A stretch of DNA of 60,371 nt from Lachnospiraceae bacterium (GTDB lineage: Bacteria > Bacillota > Clostridia > Lachnospirales > Lachnospiraceae), in assembly GCA_024684085.1 (NCBI GenBank), contig JAIKXM010000035.1, forward strand, positions 1 to 60,371, read 5' to 3'. The position numbers and the translations under genes were made by a program. Each line of letters begins with the position of its first letter. Position 1 is the stretch's first letter. Positions 6,765-49,646 of this stretch are shown here, piece after piece. The notes under the pieces were generated by a model. That model did no database searches and was not told where the DNA came from. It worked only from the letters and a program-made list of their open reading frames with translations.

Positions 6765-6783
6765 ATAAAGGCAGGGTGTGTTT

Positions 6784-7269
6784 GTGGAAAAAAAGCTGAT
6801 ATCTGGAGAAAAATGGAATATATACTGGATGGAATATTCGGCCAATACCTATCTCTACGGCTCTACTATCAGGTATATAGCCAAAGATCATGTGGAATAC
6901 TGTAATGAGCTTATGCCACCGGGAACCGTCATCAAGGAATGGTTCTCCAAGGTCAATTATCAGGAGAAGCGAATCGAACCCGAACTGCCCATGATCGACG
7001 GTGAGACGGACTACAGGATAAGCATCAATATAAGCGGTCCCGATATCGAGTCCTGCATCATCCGTCTTGTGTTCTACGACAGATACGAGCAGGAGGCGGG
7101 CAGTCTTATTCTTACAGAAAAAGAGCAGGACTTCAAGTGTCCGCTCAAGACATACAGTTACAGCATTCAGCTGATCAACGGAGGCATGGATCGGTTTGTT
7201 TTTCATTCAATAACGATCAGTGAATTGATCAGCGAGGCAGAGGGAGATTCTATTAACGTCAATGGATAA
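6784..7269 (+). CDS. asp3: Accessory Sec protein Asp3
   Basis: Asp3 is the smallest subunit of the Asp1-3 complex. The 161-aa product has features I associate with Asp3: an early WNIYWMEYSANTYLYGS segment, and a predicted beta-rich, carbohydrate-binding-like core with FYDRYEQEAGSLIL. GTG 6784 is preferred over GTG 6778 because AGGCAGGG lies 7 bp upstream of the former. It ends 8 bp inside secA2, so the two are probably translationally coupled. The sequence alone is weakly diagnostic; the position between asp2 and secA2 makes the call. Confidence 0.8.
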   Translation: MEKKLISGEKWNIYWMEYSANTYLYGSTIRYIAKDHVEYCNELMPPGTVIKEWFSKVNYQEKRIEPELPMIDGETDYRISINISGPDIESCIIRLVFYDRYEQEAGSLILTEKEQDFKCPLKTYSYSIQLINGGMDRFVFHSITISELISEAEGDSINVNG

Positions 7270-11192: not shown

Positions 11193-12511
11193 TCTTCCTC
11201 TTTGATACATTTAACGAAGACAGTGAGAAGTTGTATTCTTCATTCCTGTTGTCGGGGAAAAGATATCCGGCACTGGTCTTCGAGGAAAACGGCTTTCTTC
11301 CGGACGGAGTTACATCTTTTTTCGGATATTATATGGGGGACTATAGAGAGGCTAAGGATTATCTTGGACGTCCCAGATACTTTAATCAGGTAGAAGTGCC
11401 TGATCTGTGGGAGATACGCAGTACCAACAGCGGTGGCAATATATATGATCTGTATCAGGAGAGAGGCAGGATATTCTACAGGGAGCCGAGAAACAGGAGG
11501 CAGGTATCTATTATTGACTGGCTTGATGATAAAGGAGTCGTAAGAGCGAGCGATCATTATAATAAATACGGCAGTATCTATGCGAGGACGGTGTTCAATA
11601 AAAAAGGCCGTAAAGTCAATCGATCATATTTTGACGGAAAAGGCAGGGAAGTGGTTCAGGAGAATTATGTGACTAAGGACATAATCCTGAATGACGGTGA
11701 TGTCGTGAGGATATTCAATAACAGAACGGAGTTCGCTCTGTTTACCATTAGGAGGATGGGATATGAGAATTCGGCACTCTATTATAATTCGTTGTCCTTC
11801 CCGTTCTTCACTTCGGAACGGCTTCCGGATAACGGCGGCAGGGATATACTGTTCTGGCAGGAGAAGATAAATAAGAACATGCCCGGCAATATGCGTATCA
11901 TCGTTGATGAGCAGTCTGTAAGAACGGGGCGGATCATGGTACAGCGTCGTGACAGTTACGATAAGCTTATGGCGGAGACCGGTCATAATAATATATTCAC
12001 ACAGCTGGGGTATGTATATGAATTCAAAAGGCAACCTTACTGGGGGAATGACGCACTGATATGCACCAACAGTGATAATATTGAGAAATTGACCGAATTG
12101 GTTCAGGGAATGCCCGAGATGACTTTCCATATTGCTGCGCTGACAGAGATGTCATCCAAGCTGTTGGATATGGGCAGATATGACAATGTCAGACTGTATC
12201 CCGGGGCAGGTGTCAATAAAGTCGATGAACTGTTTGATATGTGCAATTACTATCTTGATATCAATCATGAGAGTGAGATCCTTGCAGCTGTTAAGAAGGC
12301 ATTTTTGTCCAACCTGGTCATTATGGGATTCGAGGAGACAGTTCACAATAGAGAGGTGATCGCTGAGGATTATCTGTATCCTGCCGCGAAGGTTGAAGAT
12401 ATGATCAATGATCTGAGGAAGATAGTTAATGACAGACATCTGTATTTGTCTTATATAGATGTCCAGCATGAGAAGGCAATGAGCCTTAAGAGTTATGAAG
12501 GTACGGTCTGA
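11162..12511 (+). CDS. gtfB: SRR-protein glycosyltransferase-stabilising protein GtfB (Gtf2)
   Basis: GtfB is the non-catalytic, substrate-binding partner of GtfA and holds it in an active complex. The 449-aa product has a family-like N-terminus (VIFLFDTFNEDSEKLYSS) and GT-like architecture without an E-X7-E motif. A C-terminal segment LYPGAGVNKVDELFDMCN resembles the GtfB end. GAGGAGG at 11145-11151 inside gtfA gives a ribosome site for ATG 11162. This is the last gene of the aSec locus; no further glycosyltransferases follow, so the glycan may be simple, or finished by enzymes encoded elsewhere. Confidence 0.87.
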   Translation: MEKINSADDVIFLFDTFNEDSEKLYSSFLLSGKRYPALVFEENGFLPDGVTSFFGYYMGDYREAKDYLGRPRYFNQVEVPDLWEIRSTNSGGNIYDLYQERGRIFYREPRNRRQVSIIDWLDDKGVVRASDHYNKYGSIYARTVFNKKGRKVNRSYFDGKGREVVQENYVTKDIILNDGDVVRIFNNRTEFALFTIRRMGYENSALYYNSLSFPFFTSERLPDNGGRDILFWQEKINKNMPGNMRIIVDEQSVRTGRIMVQRRDSYDKLMAETGHNNIFTQLGYVYEFKRQPYWGNDALICTNSDNIEKLTELVQGMPEMTFHIAALTEMSSKLLDMGRYDNVRLYPGAGVNKVDELFDMCNYYLDINHESEILAAVKKAFLSNLVIMGFEETVHNREVIAEDYLYPAAKVEDMINDLRKIVNDRHLYLSYIDVQHEKAMSLKSYEGTV

Positions 12512-12540
12512 GCAGGGATGACGGACCGGGAGAAGCATTC

Positions 12541-12690
12541 CGGATGACCAAAGTGAATAAGGAATGGTGATATTTGGATAGCCAAAGCAAATAAGGGATA
12601 GTGATATTCGGATAACCAAGCAAGTAAGGGATAGTAATGTTCCGGATGATTAAAGTGAACAAGGAATAGTGATATTCCGGATGAATAAAA
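12541..12690 (+). repeat. 34-35-bp tandem repeat, four copies plus a partial fifth
   Basis: Units begin with ggatgacc, ggatagcc, ggataacc, ggatgatt and ggatgaat at 12542, 12576, 12610, 12644 and 12679. Each contains an aaagtgaataagg-like block and a gatatt block. The last partial copy runs into the AAAAGGAG ribosome site of the next gene. No open frame of note and no hairpin-plus-T terminator is seen here. Confidence 0.85.
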
Positions 12691-12703
12691 GGAGAATGTA
12701 AAA

Positions 12704-13402
12704 ATGGGAGAAACAATGAAGGATTATGAAACAATGCTTGAGAAGTCTTACGACATCATGGGGGACGGTGTCCATGATACGGATGCACTGCTGGCGTGGA
12801 GAAGGGCAGCAGAGTTAAAGGAATCTCAGGAGAATATCACCGTTAAGGTCACAGGGATCGTTAAGGGTGGTGTTGTGGCCGATCTTGAGGGACTTAGAGC
12901 TTTTATCCCCGCGTCAAGGCTTACGCTGCAGAGAGTGGAAGACCTTAATCCGTTCCTTGAGCAGGAGATAACAGTCAGAGTATTTGAGGCTGATATGGAG
13001 GCTGATAAGCTCATCCTGTCTGCACGAGAGATACTTAAGGAGCAGAGAGAAGCCGATAAGAAGGCGGAGATAGCTCAGATCAAGGTGGGAACAGTACTTC
13101 ACGGAAAAGTAGCTACAATCAAGGATTATGGTGTCTTCATCGATCTTGACGGAGGCTTATCGGGACTCTGCCATATCTCGCAGATCTCTCATACAAGGAT
13201 CAAGCATCCAAAGGTTGTACTTGAGGAAGGACAGGAAGTCGATGTTAAGGTCATCGAGATCAAAGACGGCAAGCTGTCTCTGTCTATTAAGGCTCTTCTT
13301 GACGCACCCGAAGAAGAGACAGAGCCTGAATATGAGCTGCCAAAGTCAGAATCGATCGGAACATCAATGGCAGATCTTCTTAAGAACTTTAGCCTGGAAT
13401 AG
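12704..13402 (+). CDS. S1 domain RNA-binding protein (two S1 repeats)
   Basis: This is a 232-aa cytoplasmic RNA-binding protein with two S1 domains. The first spans roughly residues 45-110 (VTGIVKGGVVADLEGLRAFI, then ASRL). The second spans about 128-200 (VLHGKVATIKDYGVFIDL, GLSGLCHISQIS, LSLSIKAL). It resembles the short YabR/ribosomal-S1-like proteins common in Clostridia, which bind ribosomes or mRNA; the exact role is unknown. The start ATG 12704 follows AAAAGGAG by 10 bp. A weak acidic C-terminal tail follows the second domain. Confidence 0.85.
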   Translation: MGETMKDYETMLEKSYDIMGDGVHDTDALLAWRRAAELKESQENITVKVTGIVKGGVVADLEGLRAFIPASRLTLQRVEDLNPFLEQEITVRVFEADMEADKLILSAREILKEQREADKKAEIAQIKVGTVLHGKVATIKDYGVFIDLDGGLSGLCHISQISHTRIKHPKVVLEEGQEVDVKVIEIKDGKLSLSIKALLDAPEEETEPEYELPKSESIGTSMADLLKNFSLE

Positions 13403-36757: not shown

Positions 36758-37846
36758 GTGAAGAATATCAGTCACAAAGTGATCAAGTTAATAATGACAT
36801 TAGTGCTCGTAGGTTCTATATCTACGAGCCTAATTGGTTGTGGGATCGATCTTCCGGATAAGGTCATAATCACCACCGGTTTTACACAGAACGAAGTCTT
36901 CAAGGTTGAGGATTCCATCTGCACACGTTCGGAGCTAATGGTCTATCTTGTCAATCTGAAGAGCCGTTATGAGCAGGTGTACGGTAAGGCCATATGGGAT
37001 GCAAGATCGGATAAAGGCCTGACTATGAGCGAGAGTGTCAAGGAAGAGGCGGTGTCAAGGCTTTTCAGGCTTAAGGTGATCAATCTTATGGCAGAGGGCA
37101 GAGGTGTAACTCTTGATGAGGATGAGAAGGCTCTGGTCAGGGCGGCGGCCGATATCTATTACGATTCCATCAATGAAAAAGAGAAGGAACTCTGTGATAT
37201 CTCGCGCTCGGATATCGAGAAGATGTATACGGAATATGCACTTGCCGATAAGCTGTATAATCTTGTCATTGCCGACATCAATCCCGAGATAAGTGATGAT
37301 GAGGCGAGGATAATCACTGTCGAGCACATCCTTCTTAAGACTTATGATCTCGATCCTAATGGCAAAAAAAACGAGTTTGACGAAGAGAAGAAGAATACCG
37401 TTCGTGCAAAAGCGAACGAACTTCATGAGCTGGCTATTGAAGAAGGCGCTGACTTCGAGAGTCTGGCAAGAAATAACAGCGATGATGATAATATCACTTA
37501 TTCCTTCGGCAAGGGCGAGATGGATCCTGTCTTCGAGACTGCGGCCTTTGATCTCGCACAGGGTGAGATCAGCGATGTCTTAGAGACCGAGTACGGGTAT
37601 CATATAATCAAATGTATCAGTACCTTTGACAGGGATGAGACTGATGCCAATAAGCTTAAGATCATCGAAGAACGTAAGAACTCTACTTTCCTGGGGGAAT
37701 ATGATGCCTACGCGGACAGTATCACACGAAGTCTTAACAATAAACTGTTTGATAAGATCGATATAGCAGATATTGACAGTGATGTCACGGGAAGCAGAGA
37801 GAGTAACGACTTTTTCGAGATATACGAAGAGGTGTTCACGAAGTGA
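36758..37846 (+). CDS. PrsA-like peptidylprolyl isomerase lipoprotein
   Basis: This is an extracellular, membrane-anchored foldase. The 362-aa product has a lipoprotein signal with lipobox LIGC (Cys28), an N-terminal SurA/PrsA-type helical region, and a parvulin (PpiC) domain at about residues 185-290. The domain shows VEHILLKTY, FGKGEMDPVFETAAF and EYGYHIIKC. GTG 36758 with AAGAAAGAG upstream is the start. It lies before the heat-shock genes, but no CIRCE site precedes it. Confidence 0.83.
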   Translation: MKNISHKVIKLIMTLVLVGSISTSLIGCGIDLPDKVIITTGFTQNEVFKVEDSICTRSELMVYLVNLKSRYEQVYGKAIWDARSDKGLTMSESVKEEAVSRLFRLKVINLMAEGRGVTLDEDEKALVRAAADIYYDSINEKEKELCDISRSDIEKMYTEYALADKLYNLVIADINPEISDDEARIITVEHILLKTYDLDPNGKKNEFDEEKKNTVRAKANELHELAIEEGADFESLARNNSDDDNITYSFGKGEMDPVFETAAFDLAQGEISDVLETEYGYHIIKCISTFDRDETDANKLKIIEERKNSTFLGEYDAYADSITRSLNNKLFDKIDIADIDSDVTGSRESNDFFEIYEEVFTK

Positions 37847-37900
37847 TCCGAATACTCTCAGAGTCGGAAATTGCTCCTAAATATTAAATATTTATTAATT

Positions 37901-37927
37901 ATTAGCACTCAAGCCAAATGAGTGCTA
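37901..37927 (+). promoter_or_regulatory. CIRCE operator (HrcA binding site)
   Basis: This is a perfect match to the consensus: TTAGCACTC (37901-37909), 9 bp, GAGTGCTAA (37919-37927). It lies just upstream of the htpG -35 box, implying heat-shock control by HrcA. A partial half-site (tttagtgctt) recurs just after the -10, near 37967-37977. Confidence 0.93.
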
Positions 37928-37934
37928 ATTTTTT

Positions 37935-37963
37935 ATTGACTAACGGGACGGAAGAGATTACAA
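37935..37963 (+). promoter_or_regulatory. Sigma-A promoter of htpG
   Basis: TTGACT (37935-37940), a 17-bp spacer and TACAAT (37958-37963): a near-consensus promoter beginning 7 bp after the CIRCE site. Confidence 0.8.
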
Positions 37964-38020
37964 TCACTTTAGTGCTTAAAAAAGACACAGAAACATGTTA
38001 ATGAAAGGAAGCGATTAGTA

Positions 38021-40096
38021 ATGACAGAAAAGCACGGTAATCTTTCGATCAACAGTGATAATATTTTTCCGGTTATTAAGAAGTGGTTATATTCGGATCA
38101 TGATATCTTCTACAGAGAGTTGATCTCCAACGGATGTGACGCAATTACCAAGCTTAAGAAGCTGGATATGATGGGAGAGTATACACTTCCCGATGATTAT
38201 AAGGCTAAGATACAGGTTATCTGTGATCCCAAGGCCAAGACACTTAAGTTCATCGATAACGGTCTCGGAATGACCGCTGACGAGGTGGAGGAGTATATCA
38301 ATCAGATAGCATTCTCAGGTGCGTCCGATTTTATAAGTAAATATAAGGACAAGGCTAATGATGACCAGATCATCGGTCACTTCGGATTGGGCTTCTATTC
38401 GGCATTCATGGTGGCAGACGAAGTTCATATCGATACTCTTTCATATATGAGCGATGCCGTTCCTGTTCACTGGGAATGTGACGGCGGAACAGAGTTTTCA
38501 ATGTCGGATGGTGACAGAACCGAGATAGGAACCGAGATAACCCTTTTCCTTAACGATGATGTCCTTGAGTTCTGCAATGAGTACAAGGCAAGAGAAGTTA
38601 TCAGGAAGTATTGTTCATTCATGCCTACCGAGATCTATCTCAGTACCAAGGGCACAGAGCAGACGGAGACGATAGATAAGGGCGAGGAGTTGCCTACAGA
38701 TGAGATCGTTGAGACCATCGCACCCAAGGAGGATGATAAGGACGGCAAGATCAGACTTAAGATCAGGAAGCGTCCCGAGCTTCTCAATGATACCAATCCT
38801 CTGTGGACAAGACATCCCAATGATTGCAGTCGTGAGGATTACATTGATTTCTACCGTAAGGTATTCAACGATTACAAGGAGCCTTTGTTCTGGATACATC
38901 TGAATATGGATTATCCCTTCAATCTCAAGGGTATCCTCTACTTCCCCAAGATCAACACCGAGTATGAGTCGATCGAGGGAACCATTAAGTTATACAACAA
39001 TCAGGTCTTTGTTGCCGACAATATCAAGGAGGTCATCCCTGAGTTCCTGATGCTCCTCAAGGGCGTGCTCGATTGTCCGGATCTTCCGCTTAACGTATCA
39101 AGATCCGCACTTCAGAATGACGGCTTTGTCACCAAGATATCCGAGTATATCACCAAGAAGGTTGCGGACAAGCTCTCAGGTATGTGCAAGACCGATAAGG
39201 AAGAGTACGAGAAGTACTGGGATGACATCAGTCCTTTCATCAAGTACGGCTGTCTGAAGGATGACAAGTTCTGCGAGAAGATGACAGATTATATCCTCTT
39301 CAAGAATCTTGACGGCAAGTATATGACTCTCCCTGAGTGTCTTGAGGTTAAGCCTATCGATACCGACGAGGAGGGCGAAGCGAACAGCGATATTTCAGAT
39401 TCTGTTGAAGCTGCCGAAAAACAGCCCGAAACTGACTCTTCCGCTGCCGAAGAAAACGAAAAGAAAGAGAAGATCATCTATTACGTTACCGATGAACAGC
39501 AGCAGAGCCAGTATATCAATATGTTCCGCAAGGCCAAGATGGATGCTGTCATCCTGAAGACAAATATCGATCAGCCTTTTATATCCCAGCTTGAATCCAA
39601 GAATGAAGGTATCAGATTCATGAGAATAGATGCCGAGCTTGGTGACAGTCTTACCGGCAAGACCAGCAAGAAGGAGCAGGAAGAGCTTGACAGACAGGCT
39701 GAGGAACTCAGTAAGGTTATGGCCAAGGCTCTTAAGAAGGAAGGCCTTAAAGTTAAGCTTCAGAAGCTTAAGAACAAGAAGATCGCTTCGATGATCACCT
39801 TATCCGAAGAGTCACGTCGTATGCAGGATATGATGAAAATGTATGCCATGGGCGGCATGGGTATGGGTAACTTCGGATCTGAAGGTGAGACACTCATACT
39901 CAATGCAGGCCATCCTCTTGTAAAGGCTGTAATGGAAGACAGTGAGAGTGACCGTTCTAAGCTCGTATGCGAGCAGCTGTATGATCTTGCCAGACTTGCT
40001 CATGCTCCGCTTGAAGCAGACGAGATGACAAGATTCATCACAAGGAGCAACGATTTGCTTAGCATGCTTTTGGACGATGGCAAGGATAAGGAATAG
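38021..40096 (+). CDS. htpG: Molecular chaperone HtpG (Hsp90)
   Basis: This is an Hsp90-family chaperone of 691 aa. The N-terminal GHKL ATPase shows ELISNGCDA (Glu33 and Asn37), IDNGLGM and GHFGLGFYSAFMV. The middle domain has LYFPKINTE and LPLNVSRSALQND, and the C-terminal domain is present. An acidic, low-complexity stretch (residues about 446-485, Glu/Ser/Ala-rich) interrupts the middle-to-C-terminal part; charged linkers in bacterial Hsp90 are uncommon. Consensus deviations (Cys for Ser in the SNxSDA motif, Leu for Val in GQFGVG) are mild. Control is by CIRCE. The unknown four-gene unit follows. Confidence 0.92.
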   Translation: MTEKHGNLSINSDNIFPVIKKWLYSDHDIFYRELISNGCDAITKLKKLDMMGEYTLPDDYKAKIQVICDPKAKTLKFIDNGLGMTADEVEEYINQIAFSGASDFISKYKDKANDDQIIGHFGLGFYSAFMVADEVHIDTLSYMSDAVPVHWECDGGTEFSMSDGDRTEIGTEITLFLNDDVLEFCNEYKAREVIRKYCSFMPTEIYLSTKGTEQTETIDKGEELPTDEIVETIAPKEDDKDGKIRLKIRKRPELLNDTNPLWTRHPNDCSREDYIDFYRKVFNDYKEPLFWIHLNMDYPFNLKGILYFPKINTEYESIEGTIKLYNNQVFVADNIKEVIPEFLMLLKGVLDCPDLPLNVSRSALQNDGFVTKISEYITKKVADKLSGMCKTDKEEYEKYWDDISPFIKYGCLKDDKFCEKMTDYILFKNLDGKYMTLPECLEVKPIDTDEEGEANSDISDSVEAAEKQPETDSSAAEENEKKEKIIYYVTDEQQQSQYINMFRKAKMDAVILKTNIDQPFISQLESKNEGIRFMRIDAELGDSLTGKTSKKEQEELDRQAEELSKVMAKALKKEGLKVKLQKLKNKKIASMITLSEESRRMQDMMKMYAMGGMGMGNFGSEGETLILNAGHPLVKAVMEDSESDRSKLVCEQLYDLARLAHAPLEADEMTRFITRSNDLLSMLLDDGKDKE

Positions 40097-40132
40097 AGAT
40101 GCCGGTAATACTGATCCGTATATGATTACCGC

Positions 40133-40178
40133 AGATAGTAAGAAAGAATGTCGCTTGCGACATTCTTTCTTACTATCT
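40133..40178. terminator. 22-bp perfect hairpin after htpG, sharing the repeat-family core
   Basis: The arms agatagtaagaaagaatg-tcgc and their exact complement form a 22-bp stem with a TT loop. The core gaatgtcgc/gcgacattc is the terminal hairpin of the dispersed structured repeats, here extended by 12 bp. An outer pair cggtaat (40103-40109) and attaccg lies just before. It could terminate htpG transcription in either direction; no T run follows. Confidence 0.75.
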
Positions 40179-40194
40179 GTGAGGCTAAAGTTGA

Positions 40195-40223
40195 TTGAAT
40201 AAGTCGGCCTAATAAGGTATACT
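40195..40223 (+). promoter_or_regulatory. Sigma-A promoter of the DUF5717 operon
   Basis: TTGAAT (40195-40200), a 17-bp spacer and TATACT (40218-40223). It gives the unknown operon its own start, outside CIRCE control. Confidence 0.65.
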
Positions 40224-40310
40224 AAATATTGGCGTCTTATGTGTTTTTTTAGGGCGCTGCTGCCTGAATATATCGCAGGCAAAGTGAGAGTTGAGTGGAA
40301 GGTTGTTGGA

Positions 40311-43300
40311 ATGTCAGACGGTCAGAAAGCAGTGTCTCAGGCCATCATGTTCTCGGATATCAAGATCGAGCATGAGATGAATGCCAATGAGACATTATAT
40401 GGGTTCTTTGAACTTGAAGCAGAAGACGAGATTGTGATGGAAGGGTTTGTTATCTCTTCCTCTCTTCGTGTGCGTACCGAAGGCATCAACTTCAGGGGCA
40501 ATAAGGTCAGGATCCATTACATGGTCAATACCGACGGCATGCGTCCGGGCGACACTCTCAAAGGTAACTTCTCGATCGTATCCAATTGCGGCGAGCATAT
40601 AATGCCATTTCTTATCATGATCCGTCATGAGGTCATCAAGTCTGTGATAGGTGATATCAAGAATCTCTTTCACTTCACCAATCTTGCGAAAACAGACTGG
40701 AATGATGCGGTGACCGTATTCTATGATCCCAATTTCATCAATATCCTGAACGGTCATGATTCCATATATCGCAACCTCTATAAGGGCCTTACGAAGAAGG
40801 GCGATAAGAATTACAATCTCGAAGAATTTCTGATAGGCATCAATAAGAAGGTGCCGATCGAATATATTGTCACAAGAGATGATTATAAGTATTCCAATCC
40901 TGCTGCCGATATTGACACGACCATCGATATCGAGCGCAACGGCTGGGGATATACGAGTCTTAAGGTCAGTACCGATTGTGACTTCATAGAGCTATCCTCA
41001 GACAGCCTTACGAGTGAGGATTTTACGGCCAATACCTGTCACCTTCCTTTGAGGATAAAGGCTGACAGACTTCATGCCGGCAAGAACATGGGTCGGGTGA
41101 TCTTCCGACACCTCTACGGTGAAGTTGCGGTCACTTTTACGGTAACGAACAGTCTTCTTACACTCAGCAATCCGGTTGAGCGTAAGAAGAAGAGTAATAA
41201 TTACGGGCTTACCAGGCATTATCTGGACTATCGTCTCGGGCTTATCAGCCGTGGCAAATGGGGACAGCTCTCCATCGATATAATAGAACACAATCTTACG
41301 ATAGATGACGGAGAGAGTCTTAAGAACTATCTCTATAAGGTATATGTTCTCCTTGTGCAGGAGAACTACAATGAGGCCAAGTGGCTTCTTGATCATAATA
41401 CCTATGGAGATCCGGAAGAAGCGGATAATGAGATATATGCTTTTTATCTGTACACACTGTGCCTCTATAATGTGGATGATTATTACAGTCGTCAGGTATG
41501 TTCGCAGGTTAAGAGTATATATGACAGAGATCCTGAGAACTGGAGACTGGCGTGGGTACTTATGAATCTTACACCCGGCATGAAGGAAGGAACTTCCGCA
41601 AGGTATTCTTTCATGATGGATATACTCAATCGCGGATGTATCAGTCCTCTTATGTACGTTGAGATACTGGATACGCTTAATGCCAATCCGTCACTTCTTA
41701 CAGGTCTTGATGAGAAGATAATAAGAGTGTTGTATTTCGGAGTATGCAACGGTGCGGTCAGTGAACAGCTTGCTCTTCAGATGGCTTATCAGGCAGAGCG
41801 CATGAAGACTTACAATAAGCTCATCGTAACCGCTCTTGGACTGATCTACGGAATATATGAATCGGATGAGATACTTAAGAGTATCTGCGTTCAGCTTATG
41901 AGAGGCGACAGACATGATCATGACAGCAAGGAGTGGTATGAGCTTGCTCTTAAGCTTAATCTCTCAATAACGAATCTGTATGAATGCTATATGAACAGTA
42001 TCGATCTCAATGTTGAACAGGAGATACCGCGTTCGGCAGTGATGTATTTCTCTTATGATTCGCATCTTACTCCGGAGCAGACGGCATATCTCTATGCATA
42101 TGTCCGTAAGAACAGAGAGAAGCTGAGTGATATATATGATACCTATGTTCCGGCGATGGAGAGGTTCACGGTTAAGCAGTTGTATTCCGGTCGACTGAAC
42201 AAGCCACTGGCTTACCTGTATAACGAACTGATCCTCGGAGAGATGGCGACAGATGATAATCTTCGAGAGATCGCGGAACTGCTCGTGCGCCACAGGATAG
42301 AAGTTGATTCGCCGAATATCACAGCGGCAGTCGTTATAGATGAACGTCTTAAAGAGGAGATGTATTATCCTCTTAAAAACGGTGTAGCATACGTAGATAT
42401 AACAAGCAATGATTATACGGTTCTTCTCGAAGATGCCGCAGGCAATCGTTATTATCATACAAGCGATTATGTGACTGAGAGATTCTTCCTTCCCCGTAAG
42501 GTCATTCCCAGAGTGGAGAGGGTCGCAGCGAATACGATACCGCTCAATCTCTTTATCTGTGAAGGTGCAGGCGCCTATATTGAGATCAATGCTTCCAATG
42601 TGGAACGCTATACATATCTTGAACAGAATGAAGAGATAACCGAAGAGTATCGTGCATCCATAAGGATGCCGCTTATAAGGTATTATCAGGAATCGGATAA
42701 CCACGATAAGATAGATGAGCTCCTTGCTTCCATAGGAATGGAAGATGTTTCGGTCAAGGACAGAGACGAACTGCTAAGAGTGTTAGTCTCAAGAAGAATG
42801 GTGGATAAGGCGCTTGAATATGTTGTCTACTACGGACCGGAGACTATCGAACCTCAGATCCTGATCAGACTGACGACATTCATTATTGAACGGGACGGCT
42901 ATATTGAGTCGGATGAACTGACATCCGTGATCTACAGCGCTTTTGAACGCGGAAGATATAACGAGACTGTCCTAAGATACCTTGTTCTTTTCTATAAGGG
43001 TCTGTCCAAGAATCTGAGGAATATATGGAAGGCTGCTGCCGGTTTCTATGTGGATACCTACGATATCTGCGAGACCATGATAACCCAGACTCTTAAGACG
43101 GGAGCTTATGTCGGTGAGGAGATCCAGATCCTCAAGGAATATGTGGATGGCGGAGCCAAAACAGATGTTGAGGTGGAATATCTTGAGTATCTTGCAAGCG
43201 GATTCTTCGTCAACGACCGTATGGTGGATCAGTATGCCTTCAGTGAGATAGCGAGAATATACAATAATGAGGGCAGTATCCCCGATATATGTATCCTTGC

Positions 43301-43859
43301 CTATCTTAAGTTCTATGCTGAGAATATCAGCGTTCAGGAGCTGACACCCGCAGAGATCAGGAATATCCGCAGGTTCATTAAGATATTATATGTTGATAAA
43401 AAAGTGATAATGCCCTTTATGAAGGAATTCAGAGGCATATCGCTTGAAGCTCTCGAGATATCCAACCAGACGATGATAGAGTACAGAAGTACGGGAGCTT
43501 CCAGGGTCATCATCAATTACTGCATCAATAAAGATGACGATGACGAGGAGCATAAAGGATTCATCAGGGAAGAGATGCATCACGTATACGGAGGAGTATT
43601 TATCAAATCGGTATTGCTCTTCTTCGGTGAGACTCTTCAGTACTATATTGTCGAAGAGAAAAACGGTCAGGAACGTCTGACTGAGAGCGATATGATAAGC
43701 TGCAATGAGATCGATAATGACAGGGGCTGTGACAGATATTGTCTCGTTAACGATATAGTGATAGCCAATGTCTTAGGCGATTATGATGCTGCACTGGAAT
43801 TGCTTGAGGAATATAAATACAAGGAATACATAGTTGATAATTTCTTTAGATTGCAATAG
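40311..43859 (+). CDS. DUF5717-family giant protein, first gene of unknown operon
   Basis: This 1182-aa protein has no known function; I recognise it as DUF5717, mostly from Lachnospiraceae. The N-terminal 300 residues look like beta-sandwich domains (GFFELEAEDEIVMEGFVISS, then a PLRIKADRLHAGKN segment as in bacterial Ig-like folds). The remainder is mainly helical with TPR-like spacing (for example YVLLVQENYNEAKWLLDHN), then another beta-rich block near 700-800, and a helical tail. No signal peptide or membrane helix is seen, so it is cytoplasmic. ATG 40311 with GGAAGG upstream is preferred over ATG 40239, which would leave almost no leader after the promoter. Confidence 0.8.
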   Translation: MSDGQKAVSQAIMFSDIKIEHEMNANETLYGFFELEAEDEIVMEGFVISSSLRVRTEGINFRGNKVRIHYMVNTDGMRPGDTLKGNFSIVSNCGEHIMPFLIMIRHEVIKSVIGDIKNLFHFTNLAKTDWNDAVTVFYDPNFINILNGHDSIYRNLYKGLTKKGDKNYNLEEFLIGINKKVPIEYIVTRDDYKYSNPAADIDTTIDIERNGWGYTSLKVSTDCDFIELSSDSLTSEDFTANTCHLPLRIKADRLHAGKNMGRVIFRHLYGEVAVTFTVTNSLLTLSNPVERKKKSNNYGLTRHYLDYRLGLISRGKWGQLSIDIIEHNLTIDDGESLKNYLYKVYVLLVQENYNEAKWLLDHNTYGDPEEADNEIYAFYLYTLCLYNVDDYYSRQVCSQVKSIYDRDPENWRLAWVLMNLTPGMKEGTSARYSFMMDILNRGCISPLMYVEILDTLNANPSLLTGLDEKIIRVLYFGVCNGAVSEQLALQMAYQAERMKTYNKLIVTALGLIYGIYESDEILKSICVQLMRGDRHDHDSKEWYELALKLNLSITNLYECYMNSIDLNVEQEIPRSAVMYFSYDSHLTPEQTAYLYAYVRKNREKLSDIYDTYVPAMERFTVKQLYSGRLNKPLAYLYNELILGEMATDDNLREIAELLVRHRIEVDSPNITAAVVIDERLKEEMYYPLKNGVAYVDITSNDYTVLLEDAAGNRYYHTSDYVTERFFLPRKVIPRVERVAANTIPLNLFICEGAGAYIEINASNVERYTYLEQNEEITEEYRASIRMPLIRYYQESDNHDKIDELLASIGMEDVSVKDRDELLRVLVSRRMVDKALEYVVYYGPETIEPQILIRLTTFIIERDGYIESDELTSVIYSAFERGRYNETVLRYLVLFYKGLSKNLRNIWKAAAGFYVDTYDICETMITQTLKTGAYVGEEIQILKEYVDGGAKTDVEVEYLEYLASGFFVNDRMVDQYAFSEIARIYNNEGSIPDICILAYLKFYAENISVQELTPAEIRNIRRFIKILYVDKKVIMPFMKEFRGISLEALEISNQTMIEYRSTGASRVIINYCINKDDDDEEHKGFIREEMHHVYGGVFIKSVLLFFGETLQYYIVEEKNGQERLTESDMISCNEIDNDRGCDRYCLVNDIVIANVLGDYDAALELLEEYKYKEYIVDNFFRLQ

Positions 43860-43880
43860 CGGACTATATGGAGATATTGA

Positions 43881-45143
43881 ATGTTCGGAATGGGAGAGGC
43901 TGTAGTATTAGGCTACGATTTGTCAAATGAATATGCGCAGATAAGCTTCATGGCAAGAGACGGTCAGAATGCCGAGACCTTTAGTCTGAAACCGGGTGAA
44001 GAACAGTACAATATTCCGGCCTGCCTCTTCAAACGTAAGGAAGTCAATCAGTGGTTCTACGGTGTGGAAGCCATCAATTACAATGAGGCAGAAGAAGGCG
44101 AACTTGTGACGAACCTCTATGAGAGGGCACTTGTCGGAGAGCCCGTAAATGTTGCGGGAGAAGACTTCGATCCCATCAGACTTCTTCAGCTCTACATTAA
44201 GAGAAGTTTATCTCTCGTGTACGGGACGGTCAGACAGGATACGATCAAGGGCATTATGTTCACGGTTGAAGATCTGACTTCAAGAGCCGTTGAAGTTATG
44301 GAAGCGGTGGTCGCAGGACTCGGGCTTCCGGGAATACGCCTTGCTATCCAGGGAAGAGAAGAGAGTATTTTTTACTATATAATGAGACAGCCTGCCGAAC
44401 TGTGGCAGTACGATGTATGTGTGTATGACTTCTCGGGTGACGAGCTTAAGAGTTACAGGTGGTATGAGAACAAGCACACCAAGCCCGTTGTCGTATTCGT
44501 TGACAAGAATGATCATCCTGAAGTCAGGAAGAACGGTATCATGGGACTGGATCAGGCATTTCTGCAGGTCATTAACAATACCATGGAAGGCAGGATCGTC
44601 ACCTGTGCATATCTTATCGGTGACGGATTTGACGGAGACTGGTGCGTGGAATCGGTCAGGGAGCTCTGTCGTAACAGGAGAGCGTTCCGTGGCAACAATC
44701 TCTACAGCAGGGGCGCCTGCTACGCCATGTGGGACAAGCTCTACGGCGAGAAAGAAGCAAAGAGATATATCTACCTCGGCCGGAACAAGCTTAAGGCCAA
44801 CGTGGGCATGAAGGTCAGAAGAGGCAGAGAGGATTCCTATATCGCGCTGCTTAACGGCGGTGACAACTGGTACGATGCTTCCAAAGATTGTTATTGCATC
44901 CTTGAGAGCGGTAACAGCTTCTCTATCAGCATAGTACCTCTTGACGGGAAAAACATACGGGACATTCAGGTGGTCCTGGACGGACTTACCGAGAGACCCC
45001 GTTTAACAACAAGACTTAAGATAAGTGCTTTTATGGAGACAGACAGTAAACTGAGGATCAATGTAACCGATATGGGCTTCGGAACCCTGTTCCCGGCGTC
45101 TAATCAGGTCTTCACAAAAGCGATAGAACTGTATGAGGGATAG
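43881..45143 (+). CDS. DUF5716-family protein with ASKHA (Hsp70/actin-like) layout
   Basis: Function is unknown; I recognise DUF5716. The 420-aa product shows the three nucleotide-site landmarks of the actin/Hsp70 superfamily in order. A phosphate-1-like VVLGYDLSNEYAQISF lies at residues 8-23, a phosphate-2-like YDVCVYDFSGDELKSY at about 177-192, and an adenosine-like AYLIGDGFDGDW at about 243-254 followed by NNLYSRGACYAMW. This reading is my inference; the motifs are degenerate. After about residue 300 a beta-rich C-terminal domain follows. The gene is 21 bp from DUF5717 and nearly touches the next. Confidence 0.72.
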   Translation: MFGMGEAVVLGYDLSNEYAQISFMARDGQNAETFSLKPGEEQYNIPACLFKRKEVNQWFYGVEAINYNEAEEGELVTNLYERALVGEPVNVAGEDFDPIRLLQLYIKRSLSLVYGTVRQDTIKGIMFTVEDLTSRAVEVMEAVVAGLGLPGIRLAIQGREESIFYYIMRQPAELWQYDVCVYDFSGDELKSYRWYENKHTKPVVVFVDKNDHPEVRKNGIMGLDQAFLQVINNTMEGRIVTCAYLIGDGFDGDWCVESVRELCRNRRAFRGNNLYSRGACYAMWDKLYGEKEAKRYIYLGRNKLKANVGMKVRRGREDSYIALLNGGDNWYDASKDCYCILESGNSFSISIVPLDGKNIRDIQVVLDGLTERPRLTTRLKISAFMETDSKLRINVTDMGFGTLFPASNQVFTKAIELYEG

Positions 45144-45145
45144 TG

Positions 45146-45979
45146 ATGAGTGATCTGATCCTGTGTATAGGAGAATACGCTAAAAATCCATATTTTGTGC
45201 CGGATGATTGTATCGATCTGTTCAGTATCGAGGAACTCTGTTACTATCTCTTCACCAATGCATATCTGTTAGATGACAGATTTGTCAGTAAAGAGCTGGC
45301 CGAATGGATCACGGACGAACTCGAACTTGAGGAGATCGGTAAACAGGTACACAGAATGGCCGGAAGACCTGATGCCTTAAGCAAGCTTGTCATCCTTATG
45401 AGAGACGATATCGGTCTCTATGATGCATCTGAGTGGGATGAGCTTCTGTCCGAGATAGGTCGTAATAATAAGCTGTCACTTGAGGAGAGAAGGAAAGTCA
45501 GAGCGGACTCTTTTCTAAATGATGGCAAATACATGCTGGCGATAGATGAGTATCTGATGTTGCTCAATGAGACGGGACCTGCACAGGTTAAGCTCAGAGC
45601 CAAGGTATATCATAATCTCGGCATATGCTCGGTGCGTCTGTTTATGTTCGAGAGGGCTGCGGGGTATTTCGAGAAGGCTTACAATACCTATGCCAATACG
45701 GAGAGTTATGTCAGTATGCTGGGTGCCAAGAAGATGAGCCTGTCTTCGGAGGAGTATCTGGCATATCTGTCAGAGCATAAGGACAGTTACGAAGATTCAC
45801 TTGAAGTTGAGAGGAAGCTTGAGACTCTGAAACTGGGATGGAGCAGTCGTCCGACCAGATATTATATTAATGAACTGAAGGATATGAAGCAGCAGGGTAA
45901 GGCCTATTACGACGGCATCGGTGCGATGACCGGTCGTATTAAGGATGATTACAGGAATTGCGTCTATAGGAATAAATAA
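45146..45979 (+). CDS. TPR-like protein of the DUF5717/DUF5716 operon
   Basis: This is an unnamed 277-aa cytoplasmic protein. The N-terminal half is acidic and helical (CIDLFSIEELCYYLFTNAYL, then LDDRFVSKELAEWI). The second half carries two TPR-like repeats, around residues 120-200 (LNDGKYMLAIDEYLMLLNE and KVYHNLGICSVRLFMFERAA, then GYFEKAYNTY). The pattern suggests an adaptor for protein contacts. ATG 45146 with GAGGGA upstream fits better than the GTG three bases earlier. It overlaps no neighbour but lies 2 bp after the DUF5716 stop codon. Confidence 0.7.
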   Translation: MSDLILCIGEYAKNPYFVPDDCIDLFSIEELCYYLFTNAYLLDDRFVSKELAEWITDELELEEIGKQVHRMAGRPDALSKLVILMRDDIGLYDASEWDELLSEIGRNNKLSLEERRKVRADSFLNDGKYMLAIDEYLMLLNETGPAQVKLRAKVYHNLGICSVRLFMFERAAGYFEKAYNTYANTESYVSMLGAKKMSLSSEEYLAYLSEHKDSYEDSLEVERKLETLKLGWSSRPTRYYINELKDMKQQGKAYYDGIGAMTGRIKDDYRNCVYRNK

Positions 45980-45980
45980 T

Positions 45981-47174
45981 ATGAATTTCTTTTCTAAGCT
46001 ATTCAGGGGTCAGGATGAAGACTTCTTCAATATGGAGCTGGATGAAGCAGGCGAAGAAGATTTCGAATGGGACTGGGAGCACATAATGGAGGATCGCCAG
46101 CTGTTCAAGATGAGCGATCCGCTTCAAAGAGAGAGGTATATCAGATCTCTGGTCGAGCAGGTGCATGATGCTTCTGCGGAACTTGATAAGCTGTCATATG
46201 AATATAATGTTGTTACGGCAACCCTTAAGGATATGGATGAGATCGAGTCGCTCCCGCCTTCCGAGAAGCTGGAACTGCAGAGCTCGGCTCAGAAGATCCT
46301 GTTCTATGAAGGCGAGACGAGTGATTATAATGTACGCAGTCACGCGATGACTGAAGAACAGTTCGCGAAGATGGAACGTTATGAGAATGATATGGAGAAG
46401 GCCTGCAAGGATATGCAGGAGGCGGAAGACTTCCGGACTCTTATCAAGAACGATCTCAAGAAGCTCGACGGCGAGAAGCATGCTTATCTGTATCGCAAGT
46501 CGGAAGTTACGGGTGAGATCAATAATTGCAGGGGAATGGCCATCATCCTTGTATTTTCTGCCATATTGTGCGTGATAATGTTACTGGTACTGCAGTTCGG
46601 GTTCAAGATGGATACCCAGATAGGATATGTTATCGTGGTCGTGGCAGCCGCAATATCGATAGGCGTGACCTATTCCAAGTACGTGGATGCTTCGCGGGAG
46701 CTTAAGTCGGTATACTCGGGACTTAACAGGATAATACTCTTACAGAATTCGGTTAAGATAAGATATGTCAATAATACCAAGCTTCTTGATTACCTTTATG
46801 CCAAGTATGATACGGTAAGCGCCAAGGAACTTAAGAATGCATGGGATAATTATCTTAAGGAGAAGTCTGAGAGAGAGCGTTATAAGATAAACGAGAAGGA
46901 ACTCTCACTTCATCAGGCGGAATTCCTCAATAAGCTTCGCAAGTATCAGCTGAGCGATGTATATGCATGGCTTCACAATCCCAGATCCGTTATGGAGCAT
47001 AAGGAGATGGTGGAACTGAGGCATGCACATATCATTCAGAGACAGAAGTTAAGACAGAGGATGGACTACAATAAGAGGCTTGCGACAGACGGTGAGAAGG
47101 AGCTCAAGGAGTTCATCAGACAGTACCCTCAGTACAGTAATGAAGCCATGGATATGCTCAACAGATATTCTTGA
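45981..47174 (+). CDS. Coiled-coil membrane protein of the DUF5717/DUF5716 operon
   Basis: This is an unrecognised 397-aa protein. An acidic N-terminus (DEDFFNMELDEAGEEDFEW) leads into a long coiled coil (about residues 50-180). Two adjacent membrane helices follow (GMAIILVFSAILCVIMLLVL and IGYVIVVVAAAISIGV), then a further, highly charged coiled coil and helical tail. Both ends would lie in the cytoplasm. It begins one base after the preceding stop codon, so it is translationally linked. It would anchor the operon products at the membrane. A shorter start was chosen at ATG 45981 over ATG 45945. Confidence 0.72.
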   Translation: MNFFSKLFRGQDEDFFNMELDEAGEEDFEWDWEHIMEDRQLFKMSDPLQRERYIRSLVEQVHDASAELDKLSYEYNVVTATLKDMDEIESLPPSEKLELQSSAQKILFYEGETSDYNVRSHAMTEEQFAKMERYENDMEKACKDMQEAEDFRTLIKNDLKKLDGEKHAYLYRKSEVTGEINNCRGMAIILVFSAILCVIMLLVLQFGFKMDTQIGYVIVVVAAAISIGVTYSKYVDASRELKSVYSGLNRIILLQNSVKIRYVNNTKLLDYLYAKYDTVSAKELKNAWDNYLKEKSERERYKINEKELSLHQAEFLNKLRKYQLSDVYAWLHNPRSVMEHKEMVELRHAHIIQRQKLRQRMDYNKRLATDGEKELKEFIRQYPQYSNEAMDMLNRYS

Positions 47175-47251
47175 CATAAGAGGGCTTGTAGTGTACGATA
47201 ATTCAGTCAGTTTGACGTTTTTTTAAATAAATGATTAGGATGGAGAAGATT

Positions 47252-48052
47252 ATGAAAAAGTTGATCAGTGTAATGATGATCCTGGTTCTTGCTCTCGGTC
47301 TTGCAGCTTGCGGCAGCAAGGGAGACGGCAGAACATTCACTGTTGGTTTTGATGCGGAGTTCCCTCCTTACGGTTCACTTGATGAAGCAACAGGTGAATA
47401 TGTAGGATTCGATCTGGATCTTGCGGCTGAGGTATGTGCCCGTAACGGATGGACTCTTGTGAAGCAGCCTATCGACTGGGATTCCAAGGATATGGAGCTT
47501 TCAAGCGGAACAATAGATTGCATCTGGAACGGTTTCACCATTAACGGCCGTGAGGATCAGTATACATGGACCATTCCTTATGTAGATAACAGTCAGGTAT
47601 TTGTGGTAAGCGCCGATTCGGGTATCACTTCCAAGGCTGATCTTGCAGGTAAGAATGTAGGCGTACAGAAGGATTCATCAGCACTTGCAGCACTTCAGGA
47701 TGAGGAGAATCAGGAGAACCTCGATCTTGCCGCTTCATTTGCGGACCTTATCCAGTATGCCGATTACAATACAGGCTTTATGGATCTTGAAGCAGGTGCT
47801 ATCGACTGTATCGCCATTGATATAGGTGTAGCTAATTATCAGATCAATTCACGAGATGACGGCAAGTATGTCATCCTTGATGATGAGCTCTCTACAGAGC
47901 AGTATGCAGTAGGCTTCCTTAAGGGTAACACAGAGCTTAAGGATCAGGTAGAGAAGACTCTTCTTGAGATGGTAGATGATGGCACATTTATGAAGATAGC
48001 CGAGAAGTACAGAGATGACGGTATTGTAGATCAGGTATGTCTCGGTAAATAA
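47252..48052 (+). CDS. Amino-acid ABC transporter, substrate-binding lipoprotein
   Basis: This is a solute-binding lipoprotein of the polar amino-acid family (family 3). The 266-aa product has a lipoprotein signal with lipobox LAAC (Cys20), then TVGFDAEFPPYGSLDEATGE with YVGFDLDLAAEV, the family N-terminal signature. GTIDCIWNGFTI and the VGVQKDSSA hinge region follow. Ligand is unknown; the acidic pocket residues are not enough to tell. ATG 47252 follows GGAGAAG. The gene is followed by a hairpin, then the permease and ATPase genes. Confidence 0.9.
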   Translation: MKKLISVMMILVLALGLAACGSKGDGRTFTVGFDAEFPPYGSLDEATGEYVGFDLDLAAEVCARNGWTLVKQPIDWDSKDMELSSGTIDCIWNGFTINGREDQYTWTIPYVDNSQVFVVSADSGITSKADLAGKNVGVQKDSSALAALQDEENQENLDLAASFADLIQYADYNTGFMDLEAGAIDCIAIDIGVANYQINSRDDGKYVILDDELSTEQYAVGFLKGNTELKDQVEKTLLEMVDDGTFMKIAEKYRDDGIVDQVCLGK

Positions 48053-48129
48053 GAGAGTCCAAGGTTTCCGTGAAGGCCACTCGGAGGGCTTATAAGGAAA
48101 CGGGAACGGTTTATTACTGAACTTGAATA

Positions 48130-48158
48130 AGGTGTCACTTTCGGGTGGCACCTGTTTT
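48130..48158 (+). terminator. Intra-operon hairpin between binding protein and permease
   Basis: The arms aggtgtcac and gtggcacct (one G-U pair) with a short loop are followed by gTTTT. It likely lets the binding protein be made in excess over the membrane parts. Confidence 0.75.
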
Positions 48159-48196
48159 GTATATGATCCATCTCTGTGATCAAAGGGAGATTTTAC

Positions 48197-48871
48197 GTGG
48201 AAGCAGTTAAGAGCCTTTTTGAATCAATGATATATCTGGCAACTCACTTGTCGGAGGCTATGTTAGTGTCGGTAGAGATATTTCTGCTGACGCTTTTGTT
48301 CGCTCTGCCGTTAGGATTATTGGTTGCCTTCGGAAGGATGTCGAAGAATCCGATCATCTGCACTGTTGTGAAGATATATATAGCTATCATGAGAGGAACT
48401 CCTCTTATGCTTCAGCTTATAGTCGTATACTTCGCACCTTTCTTTGTATTCGGCATGAAGATCACTCAGAGCTACAGATTCATAGCTGTTATCATTGCTT
48501 TCAGTATCAATTACGCGGCTTACTTCGCAGAGATATACAGGGCAGGTATACAGTCCATTCCGGTAGGGCAGTATGAGGCGGCTCATATCCTCGGTTACAG
48601 TAAGGCGCAGACATTTTTCAAGATAATAATGCCTCAGGTGGTCAAGAGGATATTACCTCCGGTTACCAATGAGACCATCACCCTTGTCAAGGATACATCA
48701 CTCGCTTTCGCGATAGCGGTTGCCGAGATGTTCACTAAGGCCAAGGAGTTGTCGGCTTCACAGGCATCCATAACACCTCTTATGGCAGCAGGTGTTTTCT
48801 ATTTTATCTTTAATTACCTTGTGGCTTTTATCATGGAGAGATTCGAAAAAGCCCTTGATTATTACAGGTAG
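48197..48871 (+). CDS. Amino-acid ABC transporter, permease
   Basis: This is the membrane subunit of the polar amino-acid importer. The 224-aa product has about five helices and the family segments RGTPLMLQLIVVYF and AAYFAEIYRAGIQSIPVGQY, followed by EAAHILGYSKAQTF, the EAA-loop that contacts the ATPase. GTG 48197 with AAAGGGAG upstream is preferred over GTG 48176. It is 13 bp from the ATPase gene. Confidence 0.9.
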   Translation: MEAVKSLFESMIYLATHLSEAMLVSVEIFLLTLLFALPLGLLVAFGRMSKNPIICTVVKIYIAIMRGTPLMLQLIVVYFAPFFVFGMKITQSYRFIAVIIAFSINYAAYFAEIYRAGIQSIPVGQYEAAHILGYSKAQTFFKIIMPQVVKRILPPVTNETITLVKDTSLAFAIAVAEMFTKAKELSASQASITPLMAAGVFYFIFNYLVAFIMERFEKALDYYR

Positions 48872-48884
48872 GGGGGGTGTGCCG

Positions 48885-49646
48885 ATGGGTGAGATATTAT
48901 TTGAAGTCACGAATATGAGTAAGAGTTTCGGCGAACTTGAGGTCATCAGGGATGTATCGCTTGCCGTTGAAAAGGGCGAAGTTGTATCCATTATCGGGCC
49001 TTCGGGTTCCGGTAAGTCGACTCTGCTCAGATGCGCGACAATGCTTGAGAAGATGGATAGCGGAGAGCTGGCTTTCTTAGGTGAGAAGGCGGCATACATG
49101 GGTGCTTCGGGCATCGAATATGCCGACAAGAAGGCTCTTAAGAAGATCAGATCCTATTACGGACTGGTATTCCAGAACTTCAACCTCTTTCCACATTATT
49201 CGGTTCTTAAGAATGTCATAGATGCACCGATGACGGTTGACGGTCTTAGTAAGGAAGAGGCAGTCGCACGTGCGATGGAGATACTTGACAGACTGGGACT
49301 TGCGGATAAGGTAGACAGCTATCCCTGCGAACTGTCCGGTGGACAGCAGCAGAGAGTATCCATAGCAAGGGCTCTTGCGCTTAAGCCGCAGGTGCTGTTC
49401 TTCGATGAGCCGACTTCGGCTCTTGATCCCGAACTTACGGGAGAGGTATTAAAGGTTATCAAGCAGCTTGCTGCGGAACATATGACCATGATCATTGTCA
49501 CACATGAGATGCAGTTTGCGAAGGAACTCTCAGACAGGATAGTCTTCATCGAAGGCGGTGTGATCGTGGCCGAAGGCAGTCCCGATGAGATCTTTGCCTC
49601 GGACAATTCCAGAGTCAGAGAATTTATCGGCAAGTTCACAAGCTGA
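48885..49646 (+). CDS. Amino-acid ABC transporter, ATP-binding protein
   Basis: This is the ATPase of the polar amino-acid importer. The 253-aa product has Walker A GPSGSGKST (residues 38-46), a Q-loop VFQNFNLFPHYSV, the signature LSGGQQQR, Walker B VLFFDEPTSALD, and switch His in IIVTHEM. The length matches GlnQ/HisP relatives. ATG 48885 has GGGGGGGTG upstream; the longer frame overlaps the permease. Confidence 0.93.
   Translation: MGEILFEVTNMSKSFGELEVIRDVSLAVEKGEVVSIIGPSGSGKSTLLRCATMLEKMDSGELAFLGEKAAYMGASGIEYADKKALKKIRSYYGLVFQNFNLFPHYSVLKNVIDAPMTVDGLSKEEAVARAMEILDRLGLADKVDSYPCELSGGQQQRVSIARALALKPQVLFFDEPTSALDPELTGEVLKVIKQLAAEHMTMIIVTHEMQFAKELSDRIVFIEGGVIVAEGSPDEIFASDNSRVREFIGKFTS

Follow-up and report, generated by a model that had tools for sequence, protein, structure and literature searches.

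The stretch of DNA analysed here, referred to as the window, is the contig JAIKXM010000035.1 of a Lachnospiraceae bacterium (assembly GCA_024684085.1; 60,371 nucleotides). It carries behind the Hsp90 gene htpG a unit of four genes (40311 to 47174), whose second product, the DUF5716 protein, is the main subject of this work. Judged by profile and structure comparisons this protein is an Hsp70 by descent, with a degenerate ATP site and without a lid.

All four open reading frames (ORFs) are located on the + strand at the positions given in the original prediction and are separated by 21, 2 and 1 bp. They encode DUF5717 (40311..43859, 1182 aa; a longer ORF starts at an alternative ATG further 5', at 40239), DUF5716 (43881..45143, 420 aa), a TPR protein (45146..45979, 277 aa) and a membrane protein (45981..47174). 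For none of the four proteins is there an NCBIfam match above cut-off.

DUF5716 is related to Hsp70

In Pfam the window protein is assigned to DUF5716_C (PF18980, 3.7e-95) and taken alone it has no match to the Hsp70 family PF00012 at E<=1. A profile built from 67 window-type copies and compared to the sequences of the PDB gave 12 matches at E<=1, all 12 of which are DnaK (best 1.6e-6), with alignment blocks in the nucleotide-binding domain (NBD) as well as in the substrate-binding beta domain (SBD-beta). A bridging protein from a locus of a related family (L066) matches both PF18980 (2.2e-33) and PF00012 (1.8e-14).

The AlphaFold2 model of DUF5716 (pLDDT, the predicted local distance difference test, 94.6; predicted template modelling score, pTM, 0.91) comprises an NBD followed by eight strands at residues 306-416 (44796..45128), which according to the DSSP assignment and the DnaK alignment block form an Hsp70-type SBD-beta without the alpha-helical lid. 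Foldseek revealed 427 PDB matches at E<=0.001, the best of them DnaK (7kru_A, 1.3e-19), and the model matches DnaK across both domains. Among the 50 matches listed, 48 titles name Hsp70-family proteins or complexes with them, the ribosome-associated complex (RAC) included; the other two matches are to ciliary central-pair chains. The three motifs pointed out in the original prediction (residues 8-23, 177-192 and 243-254) align within this fold to the phosphate-1, phosphate-2 and adenosine motifs of DnaK at residues 9-19 (43905..43937), 181-192 (44421..44456) and 243-253 (44607..44639), respectively. The suggested Hsp70-type fold (ASKHA, acetate and sugar kinases/Hsp70/actin) is therefore borne out by the structure prediction, and an absence of this fold was not seen.

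The ATP site, the lid and a segment of the NBD are lost

The window-type sequences were aligned with ten DnaKs and three further Hsp70s, which we labelled HscC-like, and seven ATP-site residues were scored. The residue numbers and the catalytic roles are those of E. coli, mapped through the DnaK of the window's genome. None of the 67 window-type copies contains all seven residues. The equivalent of T11 in the phosphate-1 motif is found in one of 67 copies, K70 in none of 65 and E171 in none of 67; in the phosphate-2 motif D194 is present in 45, T199 in one and D201 in one of the 67 copies, and in the adenosine motif the first Gly occurs in 66 and the second in none. All seven residues are intact in the ten DnaKs, the three HscC-like proteins and the Hsp70s of the large operon described below (Hsp70a 13/13, Hsp70b 16/16, Hsp70-VWA 12/13, the 13th being an ORF fragment). 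The pseudo-Hsp70 of that operon has the complete set in none of 16 copies, yet its NBD is of full length.

The stretch between the phosphate-2 and the adenosine motif, which presumably holds subdomain IIB with the contacts to adenine and GrpE, has a median length of 129 residues in DnaK, 132 in Hsp70b and 126 in the operon pseudo-Hsp70 versus 57 in the window type, whose NBD is about 70 residues shorter than that of DnaK. After the SBD-beta a median of 8 residues follows, versus 143 in DnaK, which means that the lid is gone, and in the alignment the columns of the DnaK-type interdomain linker are not conserved. In comparison to Hsp70/DnaK (PF00012), DUF5716 thus shares an NBD with three recognizable motif positions, an SBD-beta of eight strands and a structural match over both domains, whereas these other elements are missing and the unit contains neither a GrpE nor a J-protein gene. 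The Hsp70-like ATPase proposed earlier finds no support in the residues. Because the ATP-site residues are lost, DUF5716 is predicted to work without an ATP-driven chaperone cycle.

The closest parallel is Ssz1 of the eukaryotic RAC. According to the excerpt of PMC7083937 used here, Ssz1 is a partner-bound Hsp70 without a lid which binds ATP and does not hydrolyse it; DUF5716 is likewise lidless and, by its residues, probably unable to hydrolyse ATP. Ssz1 differs in that it retains ATP binding and has a J-protein partner, whereas the nucleotide site of DUF5716 is strongly degenerate and the protein is linked instead to a giant scaffold and to a TPR protein. One could nevertheless imagine that DUF5716 binds ATP without hydrolysis and acts like a bacterial Ssz1, being stabilised by ATP and regulating the housekeeping DnaK, which would make the unit a DnaK co-chaperone rather than a scaffold standing on its own. 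The phosphate-1 Asp (D8 equivalent) is retained in 60 of the 67 copies, so that weak nucleotide binding is possible, and the nearly invariant first adenosine Gly fits as well. Moreover, structures containing Ssz1 are among the Foldseek matches, and the genome of the window encodes a canonical DnaK and GrpE in addition to a 570-aa Hsp70 elsewhere. We regard this explanation as rather unlikely in view of the loss of K70, T199, D201 and some 70 NBD residues, and no J-domain family is listed in the Pfam scan of six proteins of the window region and ten of L066.

The other proteins of the unit

DUF5717 matches DUF5717_N (PF18984, 2.6e-256) and DUF5717 (PF18983, 1.4e-82). Its AlphaFold2 model (pLDDT 86.7) consists of two N-terminal beta-sandwich domains, long alpha-solenoids and a C-terminal beta domain, in agreement with the large beta/helical protein described before, and the protein is predicted to be a giant scaffold. 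The Foldseek matches are partial, with a template modelling score on the query of 0.15 or below, and comprise ciliary central-pair and SPD-2 chains (about 285 columns) as well as the solenoids of IFT-A (intraflagellar transport A), SKI and PAF complexes. As the beta-rich N-terminus has a length of about 285 columns, we read the former as lying on it and the latter on the solenoids, the output itself being without ranges.

The third protein has no Pfam assignment above cut-off (TPR_2 reaches E 0.0036 and 17.8 bits versus a cut-off of 27). In the PDB its profile matches TPR proteins, designed as well as natural ones, which agrees with its original description as TPR-like.

For the fourth protein, too, no Pfam family above cut-off was found. 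Hydropathy indicates a hairpin of two transmembrane segments at residues 186-232, flanked by long charged arms with a putative coiled coil as judged by eye. Two such segments are present in 23 of 25 copies and one in the other two.

Conservation within the family

The family sample comprises 150 genomes of Lachnospiraceae, each of a different genus. PF18980 was identified in 145 of them and in 122 of the 125 good assemblies, with a single match in 143 of the 145 genomes (G129 has two, and in G137 the match is in two pieces). PF18983 is also present in 145 genomes. DUF5716 and DUF5717 occur together in 144 genomes and are both missing in four (G029, G091, G098 and G128), and the two genomes with only one of them are 67-68% complete. 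In 141 of the 144 genomes (a computed 140 of 143, plus that of the window, which was counted by hand) both matches are on one strand, with the DUF5717 match directly 5' of that of DUF5716 and 229-808 bases between them; in the remaining three genomes the two are on different contigs. This gene order is not due to chance. The proposed conserved unit thus stands, and a pattern in which the genes are seldom adjacent was not seen.

We read 51 loci in full (the window, L002-L007 and L082-L125), which were not drawn at random, being selected as high scorers, for oddities or for long ORFs; the genome of one of them, L084, is assigned to another family (f8). Each of the 51 loci encodes DUF5717, DUF5716 and the TPR protein. 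In 46 loci the TPR protein has a separate gene; in the other five (L085 and L106-L109) it is fused to DUF5716 and makes up the C-terminal half of an open frame of 690-727 aa. These five were chosen for reading because of their long ORFs, and the fair rate of fusion is 5 of the 145 genomes with PF18980.

The membrane gene is found in 27 of the 51 loci and matched in 68 of the 150 genomes; 65 of these matches are strong, with an E of at most 2.6e-61, three are weak, and the other 82 genomes have none. Outside the window 63 of 64 strong matches lie directly 3' of DUF5716 and the remaining one is on another contig. The original prediction is right in naming a membrane protein, and the membrane tether is optional.

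The actin-like nature of the NBD fold, the resemblance of the DUF5717 beta-sandwiches to ciliary central-pair and SPD-2 chains and the membrane protein of some genera could also be taken as signs of a membrane-located structure of actin-like or cytoskeletal type. Actin-like cytoskeletal ATPases of the MreB/FtsA/ParM type form filaments and have an ATP-binding NBD without an SBD, whereas DUF5716 has an SBD-beta and has lost the ATP-site residues. Since DUF5716 is related to Hsp70, and this over the SBD-beta as well, the cytoskeletal role considered in the original prediction is disfavoured; together with the lost residues and the many genera without a membrane gene this relation renders it highly improbable.

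Neighbouring genes and signals

The gene htpG is located directly 5' of the unit in only four of the 51 loci (the window, L003 with a fragment, L104 and L112); in L002 and L084 the contig starts inside DUF5717, so that the upstream side is unseen. Therefore htpG is no conserved neighbour of the unit, and the proposed Hsp90 neighbourhood is true of the window and cannot be generalized. The other neighbours vary and are mostly housekeeping-like by eye.

A perfect inverted repeat 5' of htpG (37902-37928) was found by pattern search. It is of the type of CIRCE (controlling inverted repeat of chaperone expression), the operator of HrcA. A search of 67 loci allowing up to three substitutions revealed such repeats in two, the window and L112 (16504-16530), both at htpG; the unit itself has none, and neither has any of the 16 loci from other families. 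We considered whether htpG and the unit are linked in their regulation and rejected this, as the repeats occur only at htpG and only in these two loci.

Between htpG and the unit lies a hairpin of 24 pairs, one of them G-U (40130..40181, + strand; RNA fold -38.3 kcal/mol, z -8.9), without a clear T-run, which may mark a transcriptional boundary. An own promoter of the unit, as assumed before, is not supported by the promoter scan, in which promoter-like sites are at chance level (18 versus a mean of 18.5 in shuffled sequences). Terminator-like sites are at chance level as well (6 versus 5.2), and an Rfam scan of 37500-48300 gave no match.

ATP-binding cassette transporter genes follow 3' of the unit (47231-49646), including one for an SBP_bac_3 binding protein by Pfam; an SBP_bac_3 gene is located three or four genes 3' of DUF5717 in 10 of the 51 loci. 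A divergent aminotransferase-like gene (HisC/CobD type by eye) is found 5' of DUF5717 in 15 of the 51 loci, e.g. in L093 (4851-5948).

A larger multi-Hsp70 operon in related families

PF18980 was detected in 89 of 196 genomes of the order, 82 of them over cut-off; 22 belong to the family of the window and 67 to 14 other families. In these other families PF18980 mostly matches a pair of ORFs, each about 500-570 aa long and often next to each other. From the 67 genomes we read 16 loci (L066-L081). In L066, for which ten proteins were compared to Pfam, DUF5717_N and DUF5717 are encoded by two genes, accompanied by a TPR protein, two Hsp70s (6.2e-78 and 1.6e-63) and a third Hsp70 (8.1e-92) that carries a von Willebrand A (VWA) domain. 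The Hsp70-VWA protein (5786-7861) has the VWA domain in place of the lid and its ATP-site residues are intact. A 630-aa protein (11126-13018) ends in a GrpE domain (7.1e-11), which also matches GrpE in the PDB (2.5e-4), and in Pfam its first roughly 480 residues match nothing above cut-off.

The order of genes in the operon is DUF5717, Hsp70a, the GrpE-ended protein, the pseudo-Hsp70, Hsp70b, Hsp70-VWA and TPR, followed in three of the 16 loci by a two-transmembrane protein. Eleven of the 16 loci contain all seven main components, and in L078 the VWA and the TPR gene are each split in two ORFs. Hsp70a, Hsp70b and the pseudo-Hsp70 are without a lid (medians of 10, 16 and 8 residues after the SBD-beta versus 143 in DnaK). 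In L069-L071, all of family f19, the operon genes are mixed with small unrelated ORFs, some of them lipoprotein-like or acetyltransferase-like by eye.

DUF5717, the pseudo-Hsp70 and the TPR gene are co-directional and in the same order in the window type and in the large operon. The window-type TPR profile, rebuilt and cleared of the DUF5716-TPR fusions, matches the operon TPR protein from the first residues on (E down to 7.6e-35; hhalign 99.9%, 1.9e-32), and the profile of the membrane protein matches the last operon gene of L078 (2.2e-66), L076 (2.7e-44) and L077 (5.7e-43). We also considered whether the membrane protein is related to the GrpE-ended one and rejected this, as hhalign shows no relation. 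At the level of sequence comparison all four window products are homologous to components of the large operon.

A second GrpE over cut-off is encoded beside the canonical one in six of six genomes of the order and in none of four genomes of the family, one of which (G046) has one weak match below cut-off. Operon-type Hsp70s were not seen in these four genomes either.

Outside the order we found little. Within the class, PF18984 is present in 11 of 291 genomes, ten of the window's family and one below cut-off with a 206-aa ORF, and PF18980 in nine of 245, all of the family. An order-level DUF5717 profile identified 12 of 245 class genomes, nine of the family and three with weak matches in short ORFs. 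In the phylum, PF18980 occurs in four of 249 genomes, again all of the family. Other families of the order are represented by just one to three genomes in the rows listed for these draws, which therefore test what lies outside of the order. In the open-access literature searched we found no description of the order-wide operon, no paper on DUF5717 and, by title, nothing judged related to DUF5716.

Operons with similar components are known from biological conflict systems. The Hsp70/GrpE theme of the GAP1-N2 GTPase systems combines, in the part of the eLife 2020 article (PMC7159879) considered, Hsp70, GrpE, sometimes a second Hsp70 that lacks the domain for peptide binding, and proteins of the FNIII-DnaJ or FNIII-TPR kind, which resemble the beta-sandwich and TPR proteins described here. 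This likeness would fit a defence function of the unit, which we judge to be very unlikely. GAP1-N2 (PF20013) was found in none of ten genomes (control rings 1/14), and the operon described here differs further in its three Hsp70s with intact residues next to a dead one and in its restriction, in the searches made, to a single order. No PADLOC family matches the four window proteins, and the unit is nearly universal in the family, unlike patchy defence genes. Weak PADLOC matches among six L066 proteins (two Hsp70s to PDC-M61B, the TPR protein to PrimPol) were judged to be generic domain similarity.

Trees and direction of change

In a tree of 85 Hsp70 sequences each of the residue-intact operon Hsp70s forms a clade. 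All pseudo-Hsp70s group together (100) as sister of Hsp70b (100). The window type (99) clusters inside the operon pseudo-Hsp70s, with L078 (99) and then with L076/L077 (95), which are also the loci of the order with the membrane gene. The tree of DUF5717 (25 sequences, i.e. 15 of 48 window-type and ten order rows) shows the same nesting of the window type (100/99).

The simplest history would be a duplication, catalytic death, the gain of the membrane gene and then the loss of the active partners. A duplicate of Hsp70b would have lost catalysis inside the multi-Hsp70 operon, which the membrane gene then joined; in the family of the window the operon would have lost its active Hsp70s and GrpE, and about 70 residues of the NBD would have been shed by the dead Hsp70. 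The reverse direction, with an ancestral four-gene form and a large operon built by recruitment of active Hsp70s and GrpE, is suggested by the occurrence of the four-gene form in nearly the whole family. We give it hardly any credence, as Hsp70b is the sister of the pseudo-Hsp70s in the tree and the window type falls inside operon pseudo-Hsp70s with full-length NBDs.

Discussion

The explanation which we favour, and hold to be probable with clear reservations, is that the unit is a reduced form of the multi-Hsp70 machine of the order, in which the pseudo-Hsp70 serves in a holding or scaffold complex that works without ATP. Several points weigh against it. Besides the retained phosphate-1 Asp, the match to 7kru_A has a root-mean-square deviation of 9.7 over 535 columns and a template modelling score of 0.59 on the query, the domains being placed differently. 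The hhalign comparison, in which DUF5716 aligns to four operon Hsp70 profiles over 404-420 columns, was made with profiles that share rows, so that its scores are not independent; the PDB profile search and the Hsp70 tree are the cleaner evidence. The model of DUF5717 reaches a pTM of just 0.57, and the similarity of the TPR and solenoid parts is partly generic. Five of the 16 order loci (L069, L070, L071, L075 and L081) are without part of the operon, due to ends of contigs or regions, scattered genes or components encoded elsewhere, e.g. Hsp70-VWA in G333. Finally, the Hsp70 tree is a quick search with SH-aLRT (Shimodaira-Hasegawa-like approximate likelihood ratio test) values only and 14 of the 67 window-type rows, branches in the trees are long, with three long-branch joins flagged in that of Hsp70, and the DUF5717 tree was rooted by us on seven order loci.

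In such a reduced machine the NBD of DUF5716 would be a fixed platform and its lidless SBD-beta a weak or permanently engaged site for a peptide or partner. Direct binding of DUF5716 to the TPR protein is proposed because of the gene fusions. DUF5717 would be the scaffold that carries both, and the two-transmembrane protein would tie the complex to the membrane in less than half of the genera. By analogy, the function may be that of a nucleotide-independent, Ssz1-like holding or scaffold complex, involved in the constitutive holding or assembly of clients and perhaps in their handover to the housekeeping DnaK.

Duplication and specialisation of Hsp70 are also described, in the portion of the mSystems 2024 article considered, for paralogous bacterial DnaKs (PMC11019930); as far as that portion goes, the present case differs in that a dead paralogue is kept together with a scaffold. 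More tentatively, with a likelihood that we put a little short of even, the pseudo-Hsp70 might have outlived its active Hsp70s and GrpE and, by stepwise decay of the ATP-site residues and then of the subdomain-IIB stretch, have become the core of an ATP-free cell structure derived from chaperones, which is near-core in a whole family.

The order-wide operon contains three lidless Hsp70s with intact ATP-site residues and one dead Hsp70, next to a GrpE domain of its own, a VWA fusion and a giant scaffold. Its proteins and those of the window provide a graded series from intact over dead to truncated Hsp70, by which the evolution of a pseudo-chaperone would be directly testable. Two Pfam families without assigned function, which are present in 145 of the 150 sampled genera of the family, would thereby gain an origin and a testable role.

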